A DNA stretch of 64,000 nucleotides from Frondihabitans sp. 762G35 (lineage in GTDB: Bacteria > Actinomycetota > Actinomycetes > Actinomycetales > Microbacteriaceae), in NCBI RefSeq assembly GCF_002074055.1, contig NZ_CP014619.1, positions 2,823,002-2,887,001 of the forward strand, written 5' to 3'. The number at the start of each line of letters is the position of its first letter. Within the stretch, counting starts at the first letter, position 1. A program made the translations under genes and the position numbers. Below are positions 20,962-36,849 of this stretch, piece by piece. The notes under the pieces are model-generated. The model was not told the DNA's origin. It was given only the letters and a program-made list of their open reading frames with translations, and searched no databases.

Positions 20962-23133
20962 CTAGCGGTTGGCGCCCGCGAGCTGGTCGATCAGCGCGTC
21001 GCCGGGGCGGGCGTCGATCATCTCGGCCTCGATCTCGGCGCGCTCGAGCAGCTCGGACATGCGGCGGCGGCGGGCGCGGGTGATCAGCGTCACGACGGTG
21101 CCCTCCTTGCCGGCGCGACCGGTGCGGCCGGAGCGGTGCATGTACGTCTTGTACTCGTCCGGGGCGTCGGCCTGGATGACGAGCTCGATGTCATCGACGT
21201 GGATGCCGCGCGCCGCGACGTCCGTGGCGACGAGCACGTTGACGCGGCCCGAGGTCAGGAGCTGCAGGTTGCGCGTGCGGCGCGCCTGGTTGAGGTCGCC
21301 GTGGAGGCTGGTGGTGGCGATGCCGGCGTCCTCGAGCTGGTCGGCGAGCTGCTCCGCGAAGGCGCGGGTGCGGGCGAAGACGAGGGTCTTGCCGCCGCCC
21401 TGCGCGAGCTGCTCGATGACGGCGCCCTTGTCGCGCTGCTCGATGAGGAGCACGCGGTGGTCGATCGTCGAGGAGGCCTGGTCCTCGCCGGCGACCTCGT
21501 GGACCGCAGGATCCACGAGGAACTCGTCCACGAGCTTGGCGACGCCCTTGTCCAGCGTGGCGCTGAAGAGGAGCTTCTGCGCGCGGGCCCCGGTCGGGGT
21601 GACGTCCGCGGTCTCACGGATGATGCGCTGCACCGGCTCGAGGAAGCCGAGGTCGCACATGTGGTCGGCCTCGTCGAGGACGGTGATGACGACCTCGCTG
21701 AGGTCGAGGCGTCCCTGGTCGATGAGGTCCTCGATCCGGCCGGGGGTGCCGATCACGATGTCGACGCCGCGGTTGAGCGCGCCCACCTGTCGCTGCTGGG
21801 GCACGCCGCCGTAGATCTGCGTGGTGAAGAGGCCGACGGAGCGGGCGATCGGCTGGACCGTCCTGTCGATCTGCATCGCGAGCTCGCGCGTCGGGGCCAG
21901 GATGAGGGCGCGGGGCTTGCGACCCATCTTGCGGTTCTTGCCGCCGCCGTTCTCCATCAGCTTCTCCACGAGGGGGGCGCCGAAGGCGATCGTCTTGCCG
22001 GATCCGGTGCGGCCGCGACCGAGGACGTCCTTGCCCGCGAGCACGTCGGGGATCGTCGCCGCCTGGATCGGGAACGGGCTCGGAGCGCCGAGCTCGGCGA
22101 GCTGACGGATGATGTTGGAGCCGAGACCGAGGTCCTCGAAGCTCATGCCGACGACCTCGGCCGCGGTCACGACCTCCGCCTTCAGCTTCTCGAGCTTGAC
22201 GTCGTCCTCGGGAGAGAAGTGCTGGCCCTCGGCGCGGTCGCGCTTGGGGTAGAAGTCGCTGCCGCGTTCGTCGCGGTCGCGGCGGGGGGCGCGGTCGTCG
22301 CGGTCGAAGGAGCGGGCCGGACGGTCGCTGCGGTCGAACGAGCGAGCCGGACGGTCGCTGCGGTCGAACGAACGCGGGGCGCGGTCATCACGAGCCGGAC
22401 GGTCGCTGCGGTCGAACGAGCGGGGTGCGCGGTCGTCGCGGGCCGGACGGTCGCTGCGGTCGAAGGAGCGAGGTGCGCGGTCGTCACGAGCCGGACGGTC
22501 GCTGCGGTCGTACGAGCGGGGTGCGCGGTCGTCACGAGCCGGGCGGTCGCTGCGGTCGTACGAGCGCGGCGCGCGGTCGTCGCGAGCCGGACGGTCCGAG
22601 CGGTCGTACGAACGCGGGGCGCGCTCGTCGCGAGCCGGACGGTCGCTGCGGTCGTAGGAGCGAGGTGCACGGTCGCTGCGGTCGTACGAACGCGGCGCCC
22701 GGTCGTCGCGAGCCGGACGATCCGAGCGGTCCCAGGTGCGGGGGCCGCGGTCGTCGCGCTGCGGGCGATCCCCGTAGGAGCGGTCGCCGGACGGACGCGA
22801 CGAGCGGTCGTCGCGGTCGTAGGAGCGGCCGGGGCGCTGCTCGGCCCCGCGCGCGCCGTTGCGGGCGTCGCGGTCCTCGCGAGCGCCGCCGAAGCGCGGG
22901 TTGCTGCCGGCGGTCTTGCGGGGCTCCCAGTTCGGGCGACCACCGGTCGAGTCGGGGCGTCCGCCGGTGCGGGCGCTGCGCTCGGCGGCGTCCCAGCGCT
23001 GCTTCTTGGCAGGGCCGGCATCGGCGTCGGGGCGGTAGCCGCGGTGCTTCGGGCTCTTGGAGCCCTGCTTGCTTCCGTAGTTGGGGCGGTCGGCTTTGGC
23101 GCGCGAAGAGGCGCCCTTGTCGTAAGGGGACAT
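20962..23133 (-). CDS. DEAD-box RNA helicase with a repetitive Arg/Asp-rich N-terminal region
   Basis: A 723-residue DEAD-box helicase. The first 330 residues are disordered and highly charged, with about nine copies of a 16-residue unit (RSYDRSDRPARDDRAP and Phe variants) between about residues 135 and 280. The helicase core follows: RTGSGKT (motif I), PTRELAMQ (Ia), LDEADHM (II), SATL (III), TDVAARGIHVDD (V) and HRSGRTGRAG (VI). It is close to actinobacterial RhlE/DeaD proteins that remodel RNA or assist ribosome assembly. The core is near the front of the protein in E. coli enzymes but comes last here. A leader region of up to 200 bp precedes the ATG, which has CAGGAAG as ribosome site. 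Confidence 0.92.
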   Translation of the reverse strand: MSPYDKGASSRAKADRPNYGSKQGSKSPKHRGYRPDADAGPAKKQRWDAAERSARTGGRPDSTGGRPNWEPRKTAGSNPRFGGAREDRDARNGARGAEQRPGRSYDRDDRSSRPSGDRSYGDRPQRDDRGPRTWDRSDRPARDDRAPRSYDRSDRAPRSYDRSDRPARDERAPRSYDRSDRPARDDRAPRSYDRSDRPARDDRAPRSYDRSDRPARDDRAPRSFDRSDRPARDDRAPRSFDRSDRPARDDRAPRSFDRSDRPARSFDRSDRPARSFDRDDRAPRRDRDERGSDFYPKRDRAEGQHFSPEDDVKLEKLKAEVVTAAEVVGMSFEDLGLGSNIIRQLAELGAPSPFPIQAATIPDVLAGKDVLGRGRTGSGKTIAFGAPLVEKLMENGGGKNRKMGRKPRALILAPTRELAMQIDRTVQPIARSVGLFTTQIYGGVPQQRQVGALNRGVDIVIGTPGRIEDLIDQGRLDLSEVVITVLDEADHMCDLGFLEPVQRIIRETADVTPTGARAQKLLFSATLDKGVAKLVDEFLVDPAVHEVAGEDQASSTIDHRVLLIEQRDKGAVIEQLAQGGGKTLVFARTRAFAEQLADQLEDAGIATTSLHGDLNQARRTRNLQLLTSGRVNVLVATDVAARGIHVDDIELVIQADAPDEYKTYMHRSGRTGRAGKEGTVVTLITRARRRRMSELLERAEIEAEMIDARPGDALIDQLAGANR
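22293..22730. repeat. 48-bp tandem repeat inside the DEAD-box helicase gene
   Basis: About nine in-frame copies of a 48-bp unit coding for 16 residues, with shorter partial units at the edges. Copies nearest the N-terminus carry Tyr (SYDRSDR), the later ones Phe (SFDRSDR). Identical synonymous codons across copies show recent duplication. Confidence 0.88.
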
Positions 23134-29088: not shown

Positions 29089-30459
29089 ATGGTCACGGCG
29101 GGCTCCGGTCTCCCCTCGGCCTTCGAGCACCTCCCCCTCATGGCGCTCCACGTCGTGGCACCGGTCTACGTCCTGGCGAGCGTGCTCGCCCTCGCCCTCC
29201 TCCTCCGGCCCCGTCGCGTCGTCCCCAGCCGGTGGTGGCCGCTCGTCGCCGTCGTCGCCTCGATCGGAGCCGCCATCGGAGGCCTCGCCGCCTGGTACGT
29301 CGGCGACGTCCAGAACGCCTTCGGTGTCTCCCCGACCTGGGTCGATCGCCTCTGGGCGGGCGGCGTGGTGGCCGGGCTCGGCGTGGTGGTGCTCAACCTC
29401 GTCCTGGGGCGAGCCGGCCGACGCGTCGTCGCCGGGGTCGCCGTCGTCGGCTTCGTCCTCGCCGGGGCGCTGGCGATCAACCAGGACGCCGGGGAGTTCG
29501 TGACCCCGGGGCAGCTCCTCGGCACCGACACCATCCCCCGCCTCGTGATCCCGGCCGCGTCGCCCTCCGCGGCCTCGCCGGGGTCCGCCCCCGCCGGAAC
29601 CGTCGGCGGTCTCGCCTCGGCGTGGCGCACACCGCCCGGCCTCCCCGGCGCCGGTCGCCTCGGCACGGTCCACATCCCCGGGCTGGCCTCCCACTTCGCC
29701 GCGCGGGACGCCATCGTCTACCTGCCTCCGGCCGCCCTCGTGCCGAACGCGCCCGCCCTGCCGGTGGTCATCCTGCTCTCGGGCCAGCCGGCGTCGCCGA
29801 CGACGGTCGTGACCTCGGGCCACCTGCCGGAGACCCTGGACGCCCTGGCGGCGAAGCACGGCGGTCTCGCGCCGATCGTCGTCGTCCCCGACCAGCTCGG
29901 CCCGCACTCGGCCAACCCGATGTGCGTCGACGGGCCGCTCGGGAACAGCGCGACCTACATCCTCGGCGACGTGACCACGTGGATCGGCACGCACCTCCAC
30001 GTCGAGCGCGACCGCCGCGACTGGGCGATCGGGGGCTTCTCGCAGGGCGGCACCTGCGCCCTCCAGTTCGCGACGGCGCACCCGGAGACGTTCGGCTCGT
30101 TCATCGACGTCTCCGGCGAGCGCTACCCCACTCTCGCCAACGACCGGCTCGCCATCGAGAAGGGCTTCGGCGGGAGCACGGCCGCCTTCGACCGCGCCAA
30201 GCCCGCGGCGATCATGGCGGCGCACGGCCCCTACGACGACCTCTTCGGCTTCTTCGCGGTGGGAGCCGACGACGCGAAGTACACGCGCAACACCGAGATC
30301 ATGACGAGGCTGTCCGTCGACGCCGGCATCACGGTGGAGCGATTCGCCGTCCCGCACGCCGGGCACGACTGGACCACCGCTACCCAGGGGTTCGCCCACG
30401 GGCTCGCGGCGATCTACCCGAGGCTCGGGCTGGGCGGAAAGGCGGCGACCGGTGAGTGA
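29089..30459 (+). CDS. Membrane-anchored alpha/beta-hydrolase (esterase, possible aminoacyl-lipid hydrolase)
   Basis: A 456-residue protein. Four hydrophobic helices occupy about residues 15-130; an alpha/beta-hydrolase domain follows from about residue 190 (FrmB/antigen-85-like esterase fold) with the nucleophile elbow GGFSQGG near residue 317 and a catalytic His in HAGHDW near 425. The active site would lie outside the cell. Its stop overlaps the start of the MprF-like gene, so both are one operon. In Enterococcus and Corynebacterium, esterases beside aminoacyl-lipid synthases remove the amino acid again; that role here is inference. Start ATG follows AGGAAG. Confidence 0.8.
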   Translation: MVTAGSGLPSAFEHLPLMALHVVAPVYVLASVLALALLLRPRRVVPSRWWPLVAVVASIGAAIGGLAAWYVGDVQNAFGVSPTWVDRLWAGGVVAGLGVVVLNLVLGRAGRRVVAGVAVVGFVLAGALAINQDAGEFVTPGQLLGTDTIPRLVIPAASPSAASPGSAPAGTVGGLASAWRTPPGLPGAGRLGTVHIPGLASHFAARDAIVYLPPAALVPNAPALPVVILLSGQPASPTTVVTSGHLPETLDALAAKHGGLAPIVVVPDQLGPHSANPMCVDGPLGNSATYILGDVTTWIGTHLHVERDRRDWAIGGFSQGGTCALQFATAHPETFGSFIDVSGERYPTLANDRLAIEKGFGGSTAAFDRAKPAAIMAAHGPYDDLFGFFAVGADDAKYTRNTEIMTRLSVDAGITVERFAVPHAGHDWTTATQGFAHGLAAIYPRLGLGGKAATGE

Positions 30460-32986
30460 CGCCGCCGCGGGCATCCTGCGGGCCGAGACCCGGCTCGCGC
30501 GAACCGCCGAGTGGGCGCGGGGCGTCGTCGCCCGGCAGCCCGCGAGCGTCGGGATCGCCGCCGTCCTCGTCGCGACGACGGTGATCATCGACCTCGCCGT
30601 GCCCGCGGGCTCTCCCCTGAGGCACGGGCACGGGAGGGCCGGCGCTCGAGCGACCCCGTCGCTCCTGCTCGCCCACCAGCCGATCGAGCTCCTTCTCGGC
30701 ATCGTGGCGACCCTCCTCCTCCTGGGCTTCGCGGAGCGCAGGATCGGGACCCGCCGCGCCCTCGTCGCCTACGTCGCCACGGCCGCGGTCTCGTTCGGCG
30801 CCGCCGCCCTGATCCGCTTCGCCGTCATGGACGTCTTCGGCTCGGGGGCTCCCGCGGGCTACCGTGCGGCCACGATCCCCCTCTACGCGCCGGCCGTCGG
30901 CGCCCTGATGGCCGCGAGCGCTTTCACGGGACCGCTCTGGCGGCGCAGGATCCGGGTGCTCGGCTTCGCGGCGGCCGCCACCTTCGTCCTCTTCGAGGGC
31001 AGCTTCTCCGGCGTCGTGACCCTCGTCGCCGCTCTCGCCGGCTTCGCCGTCGGCATCGCCCTCCGCTCGGGCTCGGGCCGGCGGCAGACACGCCTCACCT
31101 GGGCCAGGAGCTCGCATCACGAGGCGCGCGTCCTCCTGTCGTCGCTCGTCACGATCTCCGCGGTCGGGCCCCTCCTCGCCGCGCTCAGCCCGACCCCGGT
31201 CGGGCCGCTCGCCCCGCTCGGCGCCCTCTTCCGCGACACGCTGCCGACGACCTCGCTGTCGATGGCCTGCCGCGTGACGAGCCAGGCGGTGGGCACCGAC
31301 TTCGTCCTCAACCCCTACGGCGAGTGCACGCGCGCACTCGCCCTCGACGGTCTCCACACGCCGGGCACCGTGGCGCTCGGATTCCTGCCGCTCGTCGTCC
31401 TGTTCGTCACGGCCTTCTTCATCCGGCGCGGTCGCCGCCTCGCGGTCGTGGTGGCGATCGCCGTCAACACCCTGCTCGGGGCCGTGTCGGCCTCGACGTT
31501 TCTCGCGACGCCGGTGCCGGCGGGCGGTCCGGGAGCGCGCTTCGGCGCCCTTCACGCCCTCCTCTCCGGCATCTCGGCGCTCGTGCCCTGGGCGATCGCG
31601 GTCGTGCTCGTGCTGCTCCTGCCGCACTTCACCGTCCGCGCCGAGGCCCGCACGGTCCGCCGCCTCCTCGTCGCCGTCGCGGCGACCGCGGTCGGCCTCG
31701 GGGCCGCGTACGTCCTCGCGGGGTCCCTCGAGTCCGACGTGTTCGTCCCCTCGGTCTCCGGCGCCGGCCTCGTCGTCTCCGCCGTCGAGCGACTCGTGCC
31801 CGTCGGCTTCATCGGTCTCGACCGGCTCGGCCCGGTGCCGACGGGCGGCGTCTCCCGGGTGCTCTTCGAGAACATCGGCTGGCTCTTCTGGGCCGTCGTC
31901 GTGGTGGCGACGGGTCTCGCCTGCACCCACCGGGGCACCGCACCGGGGAGCCGTCAGCGGAGGGCGGCACTCGACCGGATCCTGCGGCGCGGCGTCGCGG
32001 GCAATCTCGCCTTCATGTCGACGTGGGAGGGCATGTCGCTCTGGTTCACCGCCGACGAGCGTGCCGCCGTCGCCTACCGCCAGGTCGGCACGATCGTCCT
32101 GACGACGGGCGATCCGCTCTGCTCCGACGAGGACGCCCCCGAGGTCGTCGCGGGATTCGCCCGCTGGTGCGACGACCAGGGGCTCGTCCCCGTCTTCTAC
32201 AGCGTCCGGAGCGCACTCCGACCTCTCTTCCGGTCCCTGTCGTGGTACGACCTGCCCGTCGGCGAGGAGACGGTGCTCCGACCCCGCACGTTCTCCCTCC
32301 AGGGCAAGAAGTGGCAGGACGTCCGCTCGAGCATGAACCGCGCCGCCAAGGAGGGCGTCCGCGCCTAGTGGACCACCCACGCGTCGCTCACGCCGCACCT
32401 CGCCCGCCAGATCCAGGACATCTCCGAGCAGTGGGTCGCCGACAAGGGCCTGCCCGAGATGGGCTTCACCCTCGGCGGCCTCGAGGAGCTGACGGATCGC
32501 GAGGTCGCGCTCATGCTCGCGCTCGACGAGCAGGATCGGGTGCTCGCCGTCACGAGCTGGCTCCCGTCCTACCGCGACGGCGCCGTCGTCGGATGGACAC
32601 TCGACTTCATGCGACGCCGCCCCGACTCCATGAACGGCGTCATGGAGTTCGTCATCGCGTCGACGGCGCTCCGCGCCCAGGAGGACGACCTGGAGTTCCT
32701 CAGCCTGTCGGCCGCGCCGCTCGCCTCCTCCGGGGCTCCCGACCCGGAGAGCAGGGCGGCTGCGACCGACCGCGTGCTCGGCTTCCTCGGCCGGACCCTC
32801 GAGCCGGCCTACGGCTTCCGCTCGCTCCTGGCCTTCAAGAAGAAGTTCCAGCCCGAATACGAGCAGCTGATCATGGCCTACGCCGACCCCCTCGACCTGC
32901 CCCGGATCGGGGCCGCGCTCGGGCGGGCGTACCTGCCGGACGTCCGGGCCGGTCAGATCCCGCGGCTCCTGCGGACCATGCGGTGA
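30452..32986 (+). pseudogene. MprF-like aminoacyl-phosphatidylglycerol synthase/flippase, split by in-frame TAG
   Basis: The frame runs from GTG 30452 to TGA 32986 (845 codons) with one interruption, TAG at 32366-32368. Upstream, 638 codons code for about a dozen membrane helices and the first half of the DUF2156 aminoacyltransferase domain (STWEGMSLWF, GDPLCSDEDA, FSLQGKKWQDVR). Downstream, the same frame continues the domain: SEQWVADKGLPEMGFTLGG, MRRRPDSMNGVMEF, FKKKFQPEYEQL. TAG falls where relatives have a Glu or Gln before Trp-Thr, so a single base change explains it. Intact proteins transfer lysine or alanine from tRNA to phosphatidylglycerol and flip the lipid. Either the synthase is dead, or the stop is read through, or the base is a sequence error. 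Confidence 0.85.
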
Positions 32987-33054
32987 CCACGGCATCGTGA
33001 CGACGCCCGACACGCCCGGGTCACGGGCAGGGAATACACCGCCGACGTCCAGTG

Positions 33055-33082
33055 TTGACAGGCACTCCCCACGGAGTAGGCT
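33055..33082 (+). promoter_or_regulatory. Consensus promoter of the potassium importer gene
   Basis: TTGACA (33055-33060), 16 bp, TAGGCT (33077-33082), then eight bases to GTG 33091. Transcription should start at or next to the GTG: a leaderless message, leaving no room for a riboswitch. Confidence 0.65.
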
Positions 33083-33090
33083 CGCCGCTC

Positions 33091-35343
33091 GTGACTAACG
33101 ACCTACGGTCTCCGAAGCGATGGCTGATCGGAGAGCCGCTGTCCTCCGAGAAGCTCGAAGGTCAGCTCCTCCCGAAGCACCTCGCCCTCCCCATCTTCGC
33201 CAGCGACCCCCTCAGCTCCGTGGCCTACGCGCCGCAGGAGCTGCTGATGATCCTGCTGATCGGCGGACTCGGATTCCTCACCCTCGCGCCGTGGGTCGCG
33301 ACGGCCGTCGTCGTCCTCCTCATCGTGGTCGTGCTGTCGTACCGGCAGCTGATCAAGGCCTACCCGTCCGGCGGCGGCGACTACGAGGTCGCGCGCACCA
33401 ACCTCGGCGAGAAGGCGGGCCTCGTCGTCGCCTCCGCGCTGCTCGTCGACTACGTCATGACGGTCGCCGTGTCGGTCGCGTCGGGCGTCGACAACATCAT
33501 CTCGGCCGTGCCGGAGCTGAACGGCATCCGGGTCGAGATGGCGATCTTCTTCGTCGTCCTCCTCGCCGCCGTCAACCTCCGCGGCGTGCGGGAGTCGGGC
33601 AAGGCGTTCGCCGTGCCCACGTACCTCTTCATCACCAGCGTGTTCATCATGATCGTGACCGCGCTCGTCCGCACCGCGCTCGGCAACCCGCCCGTCGCCG
33701 AGAGCGCGAGCTTCACCGTGCAGGGCGACAACGTGGCTCACGCGGCGTTCGTGCTCCTGCTCCTGCGCGCCTTCGCCAGCGGCTGCTCGGCCCTCACCGG
33801 CGTCGAGGCGATCGCGAACGGCGTGCCGGCGTTCCGCTTCCCGAAGGTCAAGAACGCGCAGAAGACGCTGGTCCTCATGGGCGGCATCGCCATCGTGCTG
33901 TTCGCCGGGCTCGTCTCCGTGGCGCTCATCGCCCGGGTCCACTACGCCGAGAACTCCTGCGACCTCATCGGCCTCGCCAACTGCGCGAACACCCCGCAGC
34001 CGAGCCTGATCTCGCAGGTCGCGACGAGCGTGTTCGGCGCGGCGACGATCCCGTTCTACGTCATCCAGGCGGTGACGGCGGCCGTCCTGCTGCTCGCCGC
34101 GAACACGGCTTTCAACGGGTTCCCGCTGCTCGGCTCGATCCTCGCCCGCGACACCTACGCGCCCAAGGCCCTCAACAGCCGGGGCGACCGCCTCATCTAC
34201 TCGAACGGCGTGATCGTCCTCGCGGTCATCGCCAGCGTGATCCTGCTCGTGTTCCGCGCCAATGTGACGCAGCTGATCCAGCTGTACATCATCGGCGTGT
34301 TCGTCTCGTTCACCCTGGGGCAGACGGGCATGGTGCGGCACTGGATCCGGCTCCTGCGCGAGGGCACGCCCGACCGCGGCCAGGTGAAGCGCTCGCTCGC
34401 CATCAACCTGGTCGGAGCGGTCATGACCGCCACCGTCCTCATCGTCGTGACGATCACGAAGTTCACGCACGGCGCGTGGATCGTGTTCGTGGTCATGCCG
34501 ATCCTCTTCCTGCTGATGCTCGGCGTGAACCGCTACTACCGCGACGTCGACGCCGAGGTGGAGGTCGACGCGACCACGACGTTCGGGGCCACCGGCGACC
34601 ACGCGATCGTCCTCGTCGGCAAGATGCAGAAGCCCGTGCTGAAGGCCCTCGACTACGCCATCGCGGCGCGGCACGACACCCTCGAGGCGATCCACGTGTC
34701 GGTCGACCAGGAGTCGACCGCGCTCCTGCAGCAGAAGTGGGACGAGCAGAACATCCAGGTGCCGCTCATCATCATCCCGTCGCCGTACCGCGACGTGGCG
34801 GTGCCCGTCATCAAGTACATCAAGGCGCACCGCGAGGAGTTCGGTGCCGAGGTCGTCACCGTCTACACGCCGATCTACATCGTCGGGCACTGGTGGGAGG
34901 GCCTCCTCCACAACCACCGGTCGCGCCGGATCCGCCAGCGCCTCATGCTCGCGCACGGCGTCACCGTCGCCCTGGTGCCGTGGCTCCTCGACTCGTCCGA
35001 GCTCCTCTACGGGCGGCGCTCGCGGGTGCTCCCCGGCCAGGACCGCCGCGGCGAGCCGATCCGCCCCCTGCCGCGCATGACGCACAAGAACGCCGCCGCC
35101 GCGGTGGCGCAGGAGGAAGCGAACGCGCAGGCCGTCGGCGCCCGCGACCAGGCGATGGCCGGGGTCGACGCCGGGCGCGGCTCGGGGGCCGGTGCGGGCA
35201 GCGGTACCGGTCCCGGTTCCGGCGGCGGCGGCGTGTCGGCGTCGAAGGCGCGGCGCAAGGCCGTTCAGGCGCGGTCCACGGCGCGTAACAGCGCGAGCGC
35301 TCCGACCCGGAAGCCGGACGACGGCGGGTCCGCGGGTCGCTGA
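33091..35343 (+). CDS. APC-superfamily permease, KimA-like potassium importer
   Basis: A 750-residue protein with about 12 transmembrane helices (residues 35-465) and a cytosolic universal-stress-like domain (about 490-650), then a Gly/Ala/Ser-rich tail. It shares strings with Bacillus KimA (YdaO): KRWLIGEPL, SDPLSSVAYAPQE, LSYRQLIKAYPSGGGDYEV, ASGCSALTGVEAIANGVPAFR, GDRLIYSNGVI and FTLGQTGM. KimA is a proton-coupled potassium importer inhibited by cyclic di-AMP in Firmicutes; regulation here is not visible. The GTG at 33091 is set by a promoter eight bases upstream. The stop codon is the first base pair of a 92-bp repeat array. Confidence 0.85.
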   Translation: MTNDLRSPKRWLIGEPLSSEKLEGQLLPKHLALPIFASDPLSSVAYAPQELLMILLIGGLGFLTLAPWVATAVVVLLIVVVLSYRQLIKAYPSGGGDYEVARTNLGEKAGLVVASALLVDYVMTVAVSVASGVDNIISAVPELNGIRVEMAIFFVVLLAAVNLRGVRESGKAFAVPTYLFITSVFIMIVTALVRTALGNPPVAESASFTVQGDNVAHAAFVLLLLRAFASGCSALTGVEAIANGVPAFRFPKVKNAQKTLVLMGGIAIVLFAGLVSVALIARVHYAENSCDLIGLANCANTPQPSLISQVATSVFGAATIPFYVIQAVTAAVLLLAANTAFNGFPLLGSILARDTYAPKALNSRGDRLIYSNGVIVLAVIASVILLVFRANVTQLIQLYIIGVFVSFTLGQTGMVRHWIRLLREGTPDRGQVKRSLAINLVGAVMTATVLIVVTITKFTHGAWIVFVVMPILFLLMLGVNRYYRDVDAEVEVDATTTFGATGDHAIVLVGKMQKPVLKALDYAIAARHDTLEAIHVSVDQESTALLQQKWDEQNIQVPLIIIPSPYRDVAVPVIKYIKAHREEFGAEVVTVYTPIYIVGHWWEGLLHNHRSRRIRQRLMLAHGVTVALVPWLLDSSELLYGRRSRVLPGQDRRGEPIRPLPRMTHKNAAAAVAQEEANAQAVGARDQAMAGVDAGRGSGAGAGSGTGPGSGGGGVSASKARRKAVQARSTARNSASAPTRKPDDGGSAGR

Positions 35344-35778
35344 CACTCCGCGAAGTGCGCTTTTCGGCGAACGTGAGCGGCGTGTCGTGGAGTCTCGCCG
35401 AGTCACACGGGGTCGACCCTGCGGCAGCCCGCCGACACTCCACGAAGTGCGCGTTTCGGCGAACGTGAGCGGCGTGTCGTGGAGTCTCGCCGAGTCACAC
35501 GGGGTCGACCCTGCGGCAGCCCGCCGACACTCCACGAAGCGCGCGTTTCCGCGAACGTGAGCGGCGTGTCGTGGAGTCTCGCCGAGTCACACGGGATCGA
35601 CCCTGCGGCAGTCCGCCGACACTCCACGAAGTGCGCGTTTCGGCGAACGTGAGCGGCGTGTCGTGGAGTCTCGCCGGGCCGCACGGGGGCGACCCTGCGG
35701 CATCCCGCCGACACTCCACGAAGTGCGCGCTTCCGCGAACATGAGCGGCGAGTCGTGGAGTCTCGCCGGGCCACACGG
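35342..35778. repeat. Tandem array of a 92-bp unit, about 4.75 copies
   Basis: Units begin with GACACTCC at 35342, 35434, 35526, 35618 and 35710, exactly 92 bp apart; the fifth is cut off near 35778. Copies differ by a few bases. Each unit holds an inverted pair ACTCCACGA / TCGTGGAGT (unit positions 4-12 and 44-52) around a smaller CGTTTCGGCGAACG hairpin. In copy 1 the change A to G in the left arm still allows a G-T pair. The array fills the gene-free stretch 35344-35823 between the KimA-like gene and the LacI gene; I see no coding sequence in it. Confidence 0.95.
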
Positions 35779-35823
35779 CGGCGGGGCGATGGGGCGGCCG
35801 CGCCGTGCGCAGCCGCACCGGCG

Positions 35824-36849
35824 CTAGCGCCAGACGGTACGGGGGCGCAGGAGCCGGTGGCGCGGGTCGAGCGAGGACGCCGGCTCGCCGAGCACCACGT
35901 CCCCGGGCTCGTCGCCGAGCAGCAGGTCGAGGGCCGCCGCAGCGACCTCCTCGAGGGGCTGCTCCACACTCGACAGCCCGACGGCGGCCGAGACGGGCGT
36001 GTTGTCGTAGCCGACGATCGGCACGCTCGACCCGAGCACCATGAGCGCTCCGAGCGCCAGCGTGTCACTCGCGCAGACGATCCCGTCGACCGGTGTCCCG
36101 CTCGCCAGCAGCCCGCGCACGGCCTCCGAGGCGAGCCCCACGTCGTCCTCGCAGACGAGCTCCAGCGCCGCGATCTCGTCCCGCGAGAGCCCGGGGACGG
36201 CGGAGGTCATCGTCTGGAACCAGCCGCGGCGGCGCTCGTCGCCGGCGCCCGACGAGGGCGGCCAGCCGAGGTAGGCGATCCGCGTCGAGCCGAGCTCGAG
36301 CAGCGTGCGGGTGGCCTCGGCCAGGCCGTGCCGGCCGTCGACATCGACCCAGCGGTGACGCGGGTCGAGCATGTCGTCGATCCCCCACGGGCGCCCAAAG
36401 GTCACGAAGGGCGCCTCGTGGGCGATGAGCCACTCGGTGCGCGGGTCGTCGTAAATCGTGGAGGTGAGCACGAAGGCGTCGACGTCGGCCCCGTCGAGGA
36501 GGCGCTGGAACTGCGCGATCTCGTCGAGGGGATCGGCGGCCGTGAACAGCAGGATCCGCAGCCCCCGCGCATCCGCCCGCTCCGTCAGCGCGTGGAGGAA
36601 CCGGTCGAGCACCGCCCCCGAGATCCCGTTGAGCACCGGGTCGAGCCGGACCCCGAGGGTCGAGCTCTTGCGCGTGCGGAGGCGCCTCGCGGAGGCGTGC
36701 GGCCGGTATCCGAGCTCGGCGATCGCCTTCTCGACGCGTTCCCGCGTCGCCCCCTTCACGATGTCGGGCGCGTTGAGGACGTTCGAGACGGTCTGCCGCG
36801 ACACCCCCGCCGCTTCGGCCACGTCGTACACGGTCGGTTGTCGCGACAT
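35824..36849 (-). CDS. LacI family transcriptional regulator
   Basis: A 341-residue repressor with the LacI helix-turn-helix at the N-terminus (TVYDVAEAAGVSRQTVSNVLN, residues 6-26) and hinge (GYRPHASARRLRTRKSSTLGV), followed by a periplasmic-binding-protein-like sugar domain. It is divergent from the sugar ABC importer and most likely represses it, through the operator-like site at 36977-36990. Start ATG follows GAGGAGG. The effector sugar cannot be named. Confidence 0.93.
   Translation of the reverse strand: MSRQPTVYDVAEAAGVSRQTVSNVLNAPDIVKGATRERVEKAIAELGYRPHASARRLRTRKSSTLGVRLDPVLNGISGAVLDRFLHALTERADARGLRILLFTAADPLDEIAQFQRLLDGADVDAFVLTSTIYDDPRTEWLIAHEAPFVTFGRPWGIDDMLDPRHRWVDVDGRHGLAEATRTLLELGSTRIAYLGWPPSSGAGDERRRGWFQTMTSAVPGLSRDEIAALELVCEDDVGLASEAVRGLLASGTPVDGIVCASDTLALGALMVLGSSVPIVGYDNTPVSAAVGLSSVEQPLEEVAAAALDLLLGDEPGDVVLGEPASSLDPRHRLLRPRTVWR

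Follow-up and report, generated by a model that had tools for sequence, protein, structure and literature searches.

A dispersed family of extragenic palindromes forms helically phased arrays in Frondihabitans sp. 762G35

The tandem array behind a KimA-like permease gene of Frondihabitans sp. 762G35 is one site of a REP/BIME-like palindrome family, and the helical phasing of the arrays of this family is a new feature. The existence, placement and phasing of the family are solid: neighbouring elements lie 8, 9 or 10 turns of B-DNA apart. The explanation that we prefer, with a probability of roughly 45%, is that a 59-bp unit acts as protein-bound duplex DNA at gene ends, with the proteins on neighbouring units facing each other.

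Results

The array and its gene context

Tandem Repeats Finder placed the array at positions 35338-35778 of the window, the 64,000-nucleotide stretch analysed here, with a period of 92, 4.8 copies, 93% matches and 0% indels. Five 49-bp palindromes (35345-35393, 35437-35485, 35529-35577, 35621-35669 and 35713-35761) follow each other in four steps of 92.0 bp, which bears out the regular spacing claimed in a preliminary description of this DNA. Each belongs to a near-palindromic unit of 59 bp on the plus strand (35340-35398, 35432-35490, 35524-35582, 35616-35674 and 35708-35766), so that the five copies span 35340-35766. The first 33-bp spacer (35399-35431) has homologous copies in the following three (35491-35523, 35583-35615 and 35675-35707), and adjacent spacers are 0, 2 and 7 substitutions apart, with their length unchanged.

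Genes were called throughout with a codon-usage script, independently of annotation. By these calls the array occupies a gap of 480 bp (35344-35823) where two convergent genes meet with their 3' ends, and this gap was confirmed as the sole gene-free stretch longer than 300 bp in the window. Upstream is the gene of a KimA-like transporter of the amino-acid-permease type (33052-35343, plus strand; AA_permease_2, 4.4e-28; K_trans, 2.9e-06), and downstream that of a LacI-family regulator (35824-36849, minus strand; LacI, 8.4e-18). Because the upstream reading frame ends at 35343 and copy 1 in its 59-bp form begins at 35340, the stop codon of this frame lies inside the left edge of the first unit, in agreement with the earlier remark that the array starts within this codon.

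Two further observations concern other genes of the window. A 48-bp tandem repeat of 6.9 copies (22286-22780) lies inside the reading frame 20962-23133 on the minus strand, the product of which reads like a DEAD-box RNA helicase (a name given by reading the sequence); the repeat encodes a tract rich in arginine, serine and aspartate (RSDRPARDDRAP...) in the N-terminal part of the protein. A gene of an MprF-like lysyltransferase looks split into the plus-strand frames 30452-32368 and 32459-32986, the former matching positions 5-132 of the 298 of the LPG_synthase_C profile alone and the short second frame following directly, which may reflect a frameshift or a sequencing error.

A dispersed palindrome family

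The element occurs in at least 169 copies, 145 of them 49 bp and 24 of them 50 bp long, in 71 clusters of the chromosome. This count comes from a weight-matrix scan of stretches flagged by BLAST, arm-pair and covariance-model searches. BLAST of the array against its own genome gave at least 64 matches, the array itself counted (40 of 123 candidates scored), and a covariance model built from one element per cluster gave at least 150 (150 of 4051 candidates scored); since just these parts of the candidates were scored, 169 is a lower bound. The inner arm pair ACTCCACGA...TCGTGGAGT was found at 52 sites in the same genome, and its reversed control at 0. Twenty-two clusters hold a single element and 49 are arrays (21 pairs, 16 threes, 5 fours, 6 fives and 1 seven).

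By base counts in the flanks of the 146 elements known at first, the full unit measures about 59 bp and is bounded by the 14-bp inverted arms GCGAGACTCCACGA and TCGTGGAGTCTCGC. Some copies are nearly perfect palindromes; the core is asymmetric, with the right interior half (GAANGTGAGCGGCGWG) conserved and the left half variable. The 11-base arm GAGACTCCACG was found 174 times within elements and 0 times outside them in 381,855 bases, and the 9-base inner arm ACTCCACGA 179 times within and 9 times outside, against 1.8 expected by composition. A DNA uptake sequence was rejected on the absence of the 11-base arm outside elements, notwithstanding the 9 outside occurrences of the shorter one.

Orientations are mixed in 14 of the 49 arrays, few of which alternate strictly. 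All 14 start with a minus element, and left halves face each other (-+) more often than right halves do (+-), 18 times against 6. Arrays grow by duplicating unit and spacer together, and adjacent homologous spacers differ in length in 8 of 34 cases.

Such joint duplication, together with the 93% matches, would suit a simple minisatellite that slippage had expanded at one place, the reading that the preliminary description attached to a unit occurring nowhere else. The genome-wide search found the element at 70 other places, also as singles and with mostly unrelated spacers, which refutes this reading as a full account and makes it wholly improbable; slippage could nevertheless account for the number of copies in the array. 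CRISPR, already dismissed in the earlier description, was likewise rejected, given that the spacers of the array are homologous and that elements occur also singly and in both orientations.

Placement relative to genes

Forty of the 71 clusters have convergent neighbours, 25 are flanked by genes of the same direction and 5 by divergent ones, and 1 has no assigned context. The convergent share (40/71) contrasts with that among other neighbouring gene pairs in the window (9/53; Fisher p=6e-6), and the divergent share is 5/70 against 10/53 (p=0.057). At the 25 same-direction places, 23 elements are oriented with transcription and 25 against it, i.e. there is no bias.

According to the broad definition given in PMC1525189, a REP is a repeated, extragenic palindrome of about 21-65 bp. 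The Frondihabitans element falls within it, being a palindrome of 49 or 50 bp present in 169 copies, and in none of the 71 clusters does overlap with a called gene exceed 25 bp; a REP-like nature, one of those proposed at the outset, is thus supported by a dispersed extragenic family. A like preference for convergent and same-direction gaps is described for published REPs in extracts of PMC3733652 and PMC1525189.

Helical phasing of neighbouring elements

The distances between centres of neighbouring elements fall into three classes, at 80.5-85.5 bp (46 of 98), 91-96 bp (36) and 102-104.5 bp (12), which together take up 94 of 98 spacings; the off-phase ones are 108, 110, 122 and 152 bp, once each. 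The class means of 83.05, 93.37 and 103.57 bp give a step of 10.28 ± 0.20 bp, near the pitch of B-DNA and under the 11 bp of an A-form RNA helix. After deduplication, which retained spacers with under 65% identity to others of their array, 56 of the 59 remaining, from 49 arrays, fell in the three classes. When each of the 41 arrays in the initial element list contributed a single distance, concentration was 0.85 at a period of 10.4-10.6 bp, while 2000 uniform draws gave at most 0.59; for the 58 deduplicated distances below 125 bp it was 0.79, with a best period of 10.15 bp, and was reached by 0 of 20,000 uniform draws.

By arithmetic from the element spacings, the centres of the ACTCCAC arms lie 42 bp, or about four turns, apart within the 49-bp unit, and the facing arms of neighbouring units about 41, 51 or 62 bp apart. 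All four orientation pairings (++, --, -+ and +-) fall in the same classes. Across arrays, the mean identity of spacers is 0.566, against 0.548 when shuffled; an identity of 75% or more is reached by 42 of 1701 cross-array pairs, against 21 for shuffled spacers, so kinship among a few spacers is possible. Unlike spacers and mixed orientations in shared spacing classes imply that the pattern is explained neither by descent from a single spacer nor by tandem duplication on its own. A protein-binding array, another of the proposed natures, is supported by this helically phased spacing.

As a control, 450 kb of E. coli MG1655 were searched and yielded 95 REPs and 46 neighbouring pairs closer than 200 bp, the distances of which depend on orientation and type of spacer. 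One distance per cluster and spacing gave a concentration of 0.37 (best period 10.70 bp, p 0.08), and all 46 pairs gave 0.39 (11.25 bp, p 0.014). Unlike the Frondihabitans elements, E. coli REPs thus show no clear helical pattern.

Palindromes of related genomes

Among the seven Frondihabitans genomes, the own genome was the sole one matched by the window unit in BLAST. The outer arm pair GAGACTCCAC...GTGGAGTCTC was present in 3 of 398 genomes of the bacterial family, with 77 sites in the own genome (control 0), 5 in G004 and 1 in G138. In the five G004 elements the arms are kept and the interiors are different; one forms a full hairpin, and two lie 84 bp apart. The G138 match, the lone one outside the genus, shares the GAGACTCCAC arm in a hairpin followed by a T-run; as this resembles an ordinary intrinsic terminator, the match was set aside. 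A search with the inner arms across genome contigs returned 23 stretches, of which 2 are from Frondihabitans and the other 21 were taken as chance.

The site behind the KimA-like gene is occupied differently in the other species. Two copies of a 66-bp TTTACCTATAGGT family lie there in G151, a 78-bp AATTTGAAGGAGA element with a different neighbour gene in G004, and a 42-bp GTCGGCAGCGG element in G150. The G153 site carries a diverged sequence that combines the core of the own genome with a family-like left arm and in which no inverted repeat was detected by the repeat finder; the G152 site holds no palindrome element, and that of G087 is without the neighbour gene. Three other Frondihabitans thus have a palindrome behind the KimA-like gene, and a fourth has a decayed one. 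A composite search of both strands gave 84 rows in G151, 28 in G004, 17 in G150, 8 in G153, 1 in G152 and 0 in both the own genome and G087, and the palindromes of the first four are each dispersed mainly in their own genome. For G150, 12 elements were chosen by eye, and the other rows at threshold were dropped as probable coding matches; for G153, 7 places were chosen by eye.

In G151, 45 of 45 elements are 66 bp long within a search range of 50-90 bp. Of the 39 places that they occupy, 25 are convergent, and 1 overlaps a called reading frame. The gaps between G151 neighbours take five distinct distances (77, 78, 87, 88 and 119), with a phase of 3.3 bp modulo 10.4 against 3.0 bp in the own genome (concentration p about 0.001), where element edges were set by conservation and are possibly one base off. 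Five of the 39 G151 slots, including the one that started the comparison, have both flanks beside the same own-genome cluster, while a further two or three have one matching side or lie beside two clusters; with about 2 expected by chance on a rough count, conservation of slots is suggestive. Among proteins encoded beside the elements of five species, the groups present in at least three are KimA-like, LacI and one further gene.

By eye, the left and right halves of the G151 family come in few variants that seem freely combined, as if halves had been exchanged between elements. The own-genome core GAAAGTGAG.GGCG recurs in G153 and G004 elements with different outer arms, which suggests a modular exchange of arms and core.

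That Frondihabitans genomes differ in their families would also be expected of selfish REP/MITE-like DNA without a host role. Under this alternative, a putative recombinase would copy the palindrome into gene-free gaps, convergent ones being those where insertion does least harm, and the 10.4-bp steps would come from a recombination complex that loops the DNA between bound ends. The REP-like placement and the growth of arrays by duplication of unit plus spacer speak for it as well, and length steps set by a complex have a precedent: an extract of PMC3464196 describes Paramecium IESs, in which lengths between paired ends change in steps of about 10 bp, an effect ascribed to looping of the DNA within a protein complex. 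These elements are eukaryotic, are excised and form no palindrome arrays, and the analogy concerns phasing alone. On the other hand, Y1_Tnp (PF01797), the family of IS200/IS605-type transposases to which RAYTs are related, had no match in any of the 7 genus genomes, the own one included, in a search that gave matches in 5 of 14 named genomes, among them E. coli as the positive control; a very divergent enzyme is possible. There is also no shared candidate gene beside the elements of the five species. We regard a purely selfish origin as possible but doubtful; since a recombination complex would give the same spacing rule, it nevertheless stands close behind the best explanation.

RNA structure and transcription ends

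The 92-nt unit folds no better than its shuffles (z 0.09 and 0.11). The 59-nt form gives a clear fold for copy 2 (z -2.48) and a weaker one for copy 1 (z -1.42). Copy 1 does carry the change that had been pointed out, ACTCCGCGA for TCGTGGAGT, by which a G-T pair replaces an A-T pair, and this had been taken as a hint of maintained structure. In 57 own-genome copies (one per cluster, from the 146 elements then known), however, 81.3% of cells were paired, against 81.8% in shuffles, so the single G-T pair is no sign of such maintenance. Covariance analysis accordingly gave no support for compensatory change in the own genome and weak support in the G151 family of the sister species (44 of 45 elements; score 0.174 against 0.152, with 3 of 500 shuffles as high). 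An Rfam RNA family was rejected, the best score being 19.9 bits against a gathering cut-off of 142. With no orientation bias and a spacing step that fits B-DNA better, the structured RNA that had also been envisaged finds no support.

A transcription-ending role deserves separate consideration. An intrinsic terminator was rejected, with no terminator match in 35200-35950, no T-run, and a T content of 5% in the 15 nt outside array ends. On the way into arrays from the 3' ends of genes, the sequence is, however, 50% C and 3% A (91 flanks), whereas the 123 control flanks have 40% C and 12% A (p=1e-4 for the difference in C minus G), and the mirror-image skew, G-rich and T-poor outwards, peaks beside the element in G000, G151 and G004. 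These features leave room for bidirectional transcription-end elements, in which a C-rich, A-poor stretch would be followed by a stable hairpin, Rho or pausing would end the transcript, the hairpin would protect its 3' end and arrays would add efficiency. The convergent placement and the stability of the hairpins agree with this, and REPs facilitate Rho-dependent termination according to the background section of PMC2817692. Yet the skew is unclear in G150, own-genome pairing does not covary above shuffles, and the second G004 family has 8 of 28 places convergent and 15 of 28 same-direction (1 overlap). Apart from the missing T-run and terminator match, a role in RNA also gives no reason for 10.3-bp phasing, and we consider this explanation rather unlikely.

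Discussion

The phasing is the strongest clue to mechanism, and it points to face-to-face contact or short DNA loops where converging genes meet. For the binding of duplex DNA that we infer, a putative dimeric or oligomeric protein would most likely read the two inverted 14-bp arms in double-stranded DNA, and proteins on neighbouring units would touch across the short spacer or loop it out. Such contact or looping would require neighbours to lie on the same helical face, hence at 8, 9 or 10 turns. The complex would probably form a boundary where transcription units meet, either blocking read-through or anchoring supercoils. Several facts speak against this reading: the four off-phase spacings, the excess of ACTCCACGA outside elements, the few cross-array spacers that are possibly related, and the indel counts, from which no selection on spacer length can be read. 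An insertion mechanism could yield the same phasing, and pairing of elements is not obligatory, because 22 of 71 places hold one element.

A wider and more doubtful proposal is that in each of several Frondihabitans species a fast-evolving and so far undescribed DNA-bridging protein, which might be an architectural protein or a recombinase, reads a palindrome family peculiar to that species. Bridging, through short DNA loops or through contact face to face, would set the whole-turn distances, and the family sequence would be replaced between species while some convergent sites are kept.

The likeness to REPs and BIMEs, as these are presented in extracts of PMC1525189, PMC2817692 and PMC3733652, lies in short extragenic palindromes of high copy number, placed singly or in arrays of mixed orientation, preferring convergent and same-direction gaps, and belonging to families that differ between related species. 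The Frondihabitans element differs in that its conserved edges (GCGAG and CTCGC in 146 copies and in a 57-row alignment) are without the GTAG or CGTC tag of the REP superfamilies. Most of its arrays are in one orientation, and their helical-step distances with mostly unrelated spacers have no counterpart in E. coli REPs. By the BIME criterion of regular spacing and alternating orientation, spacing is regular and alternation rare. Two inverted conserved arms round a variable middle, forming one hairpin unit, and the tandem clusters recall REPINs, for which an extract of PMC3116915 gives spacings of 71 and 110 bp, some in tandem clusters; the Frondihabitans unit is of 59 bp, is not a REP doublet, and no RAYT-type gene was found in the 7 genus genomes. 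As there is neither a Y1 transposase nor a GTAG/CGTC edge, the family stands outside the described REP-RAYT system.

Mycobacterial MIRUs, intergenic tandem repeats of 40-100 bp, some of which overlap stop codons, are similar as actinobacterial repeats of this position. To our knowledge, neither palindromic pairs of binding sites nor helical phasing has been described for them. Among the literature matches listed, no publication dealt with Frondihabitans repeats and no paper joined REP sequences, palindromes, helical repeat and spacing, which does not imply absence from print.

It has long been a puzzle why bacterial genomes retain hundreds of extragenic palindromes. The 49 arrays described here are in effect a natural helical-twist experiment, which points to duplex DNA and face-to-face contacts, not to RNA. 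The phasing allows a direct test by a half-turn shift, and the 14-bp arms provide a bait for the protein. Unrelated families that replace one another across the genus, with no RAYT-type gene found, suggest that there is another route to REP-like repeats.
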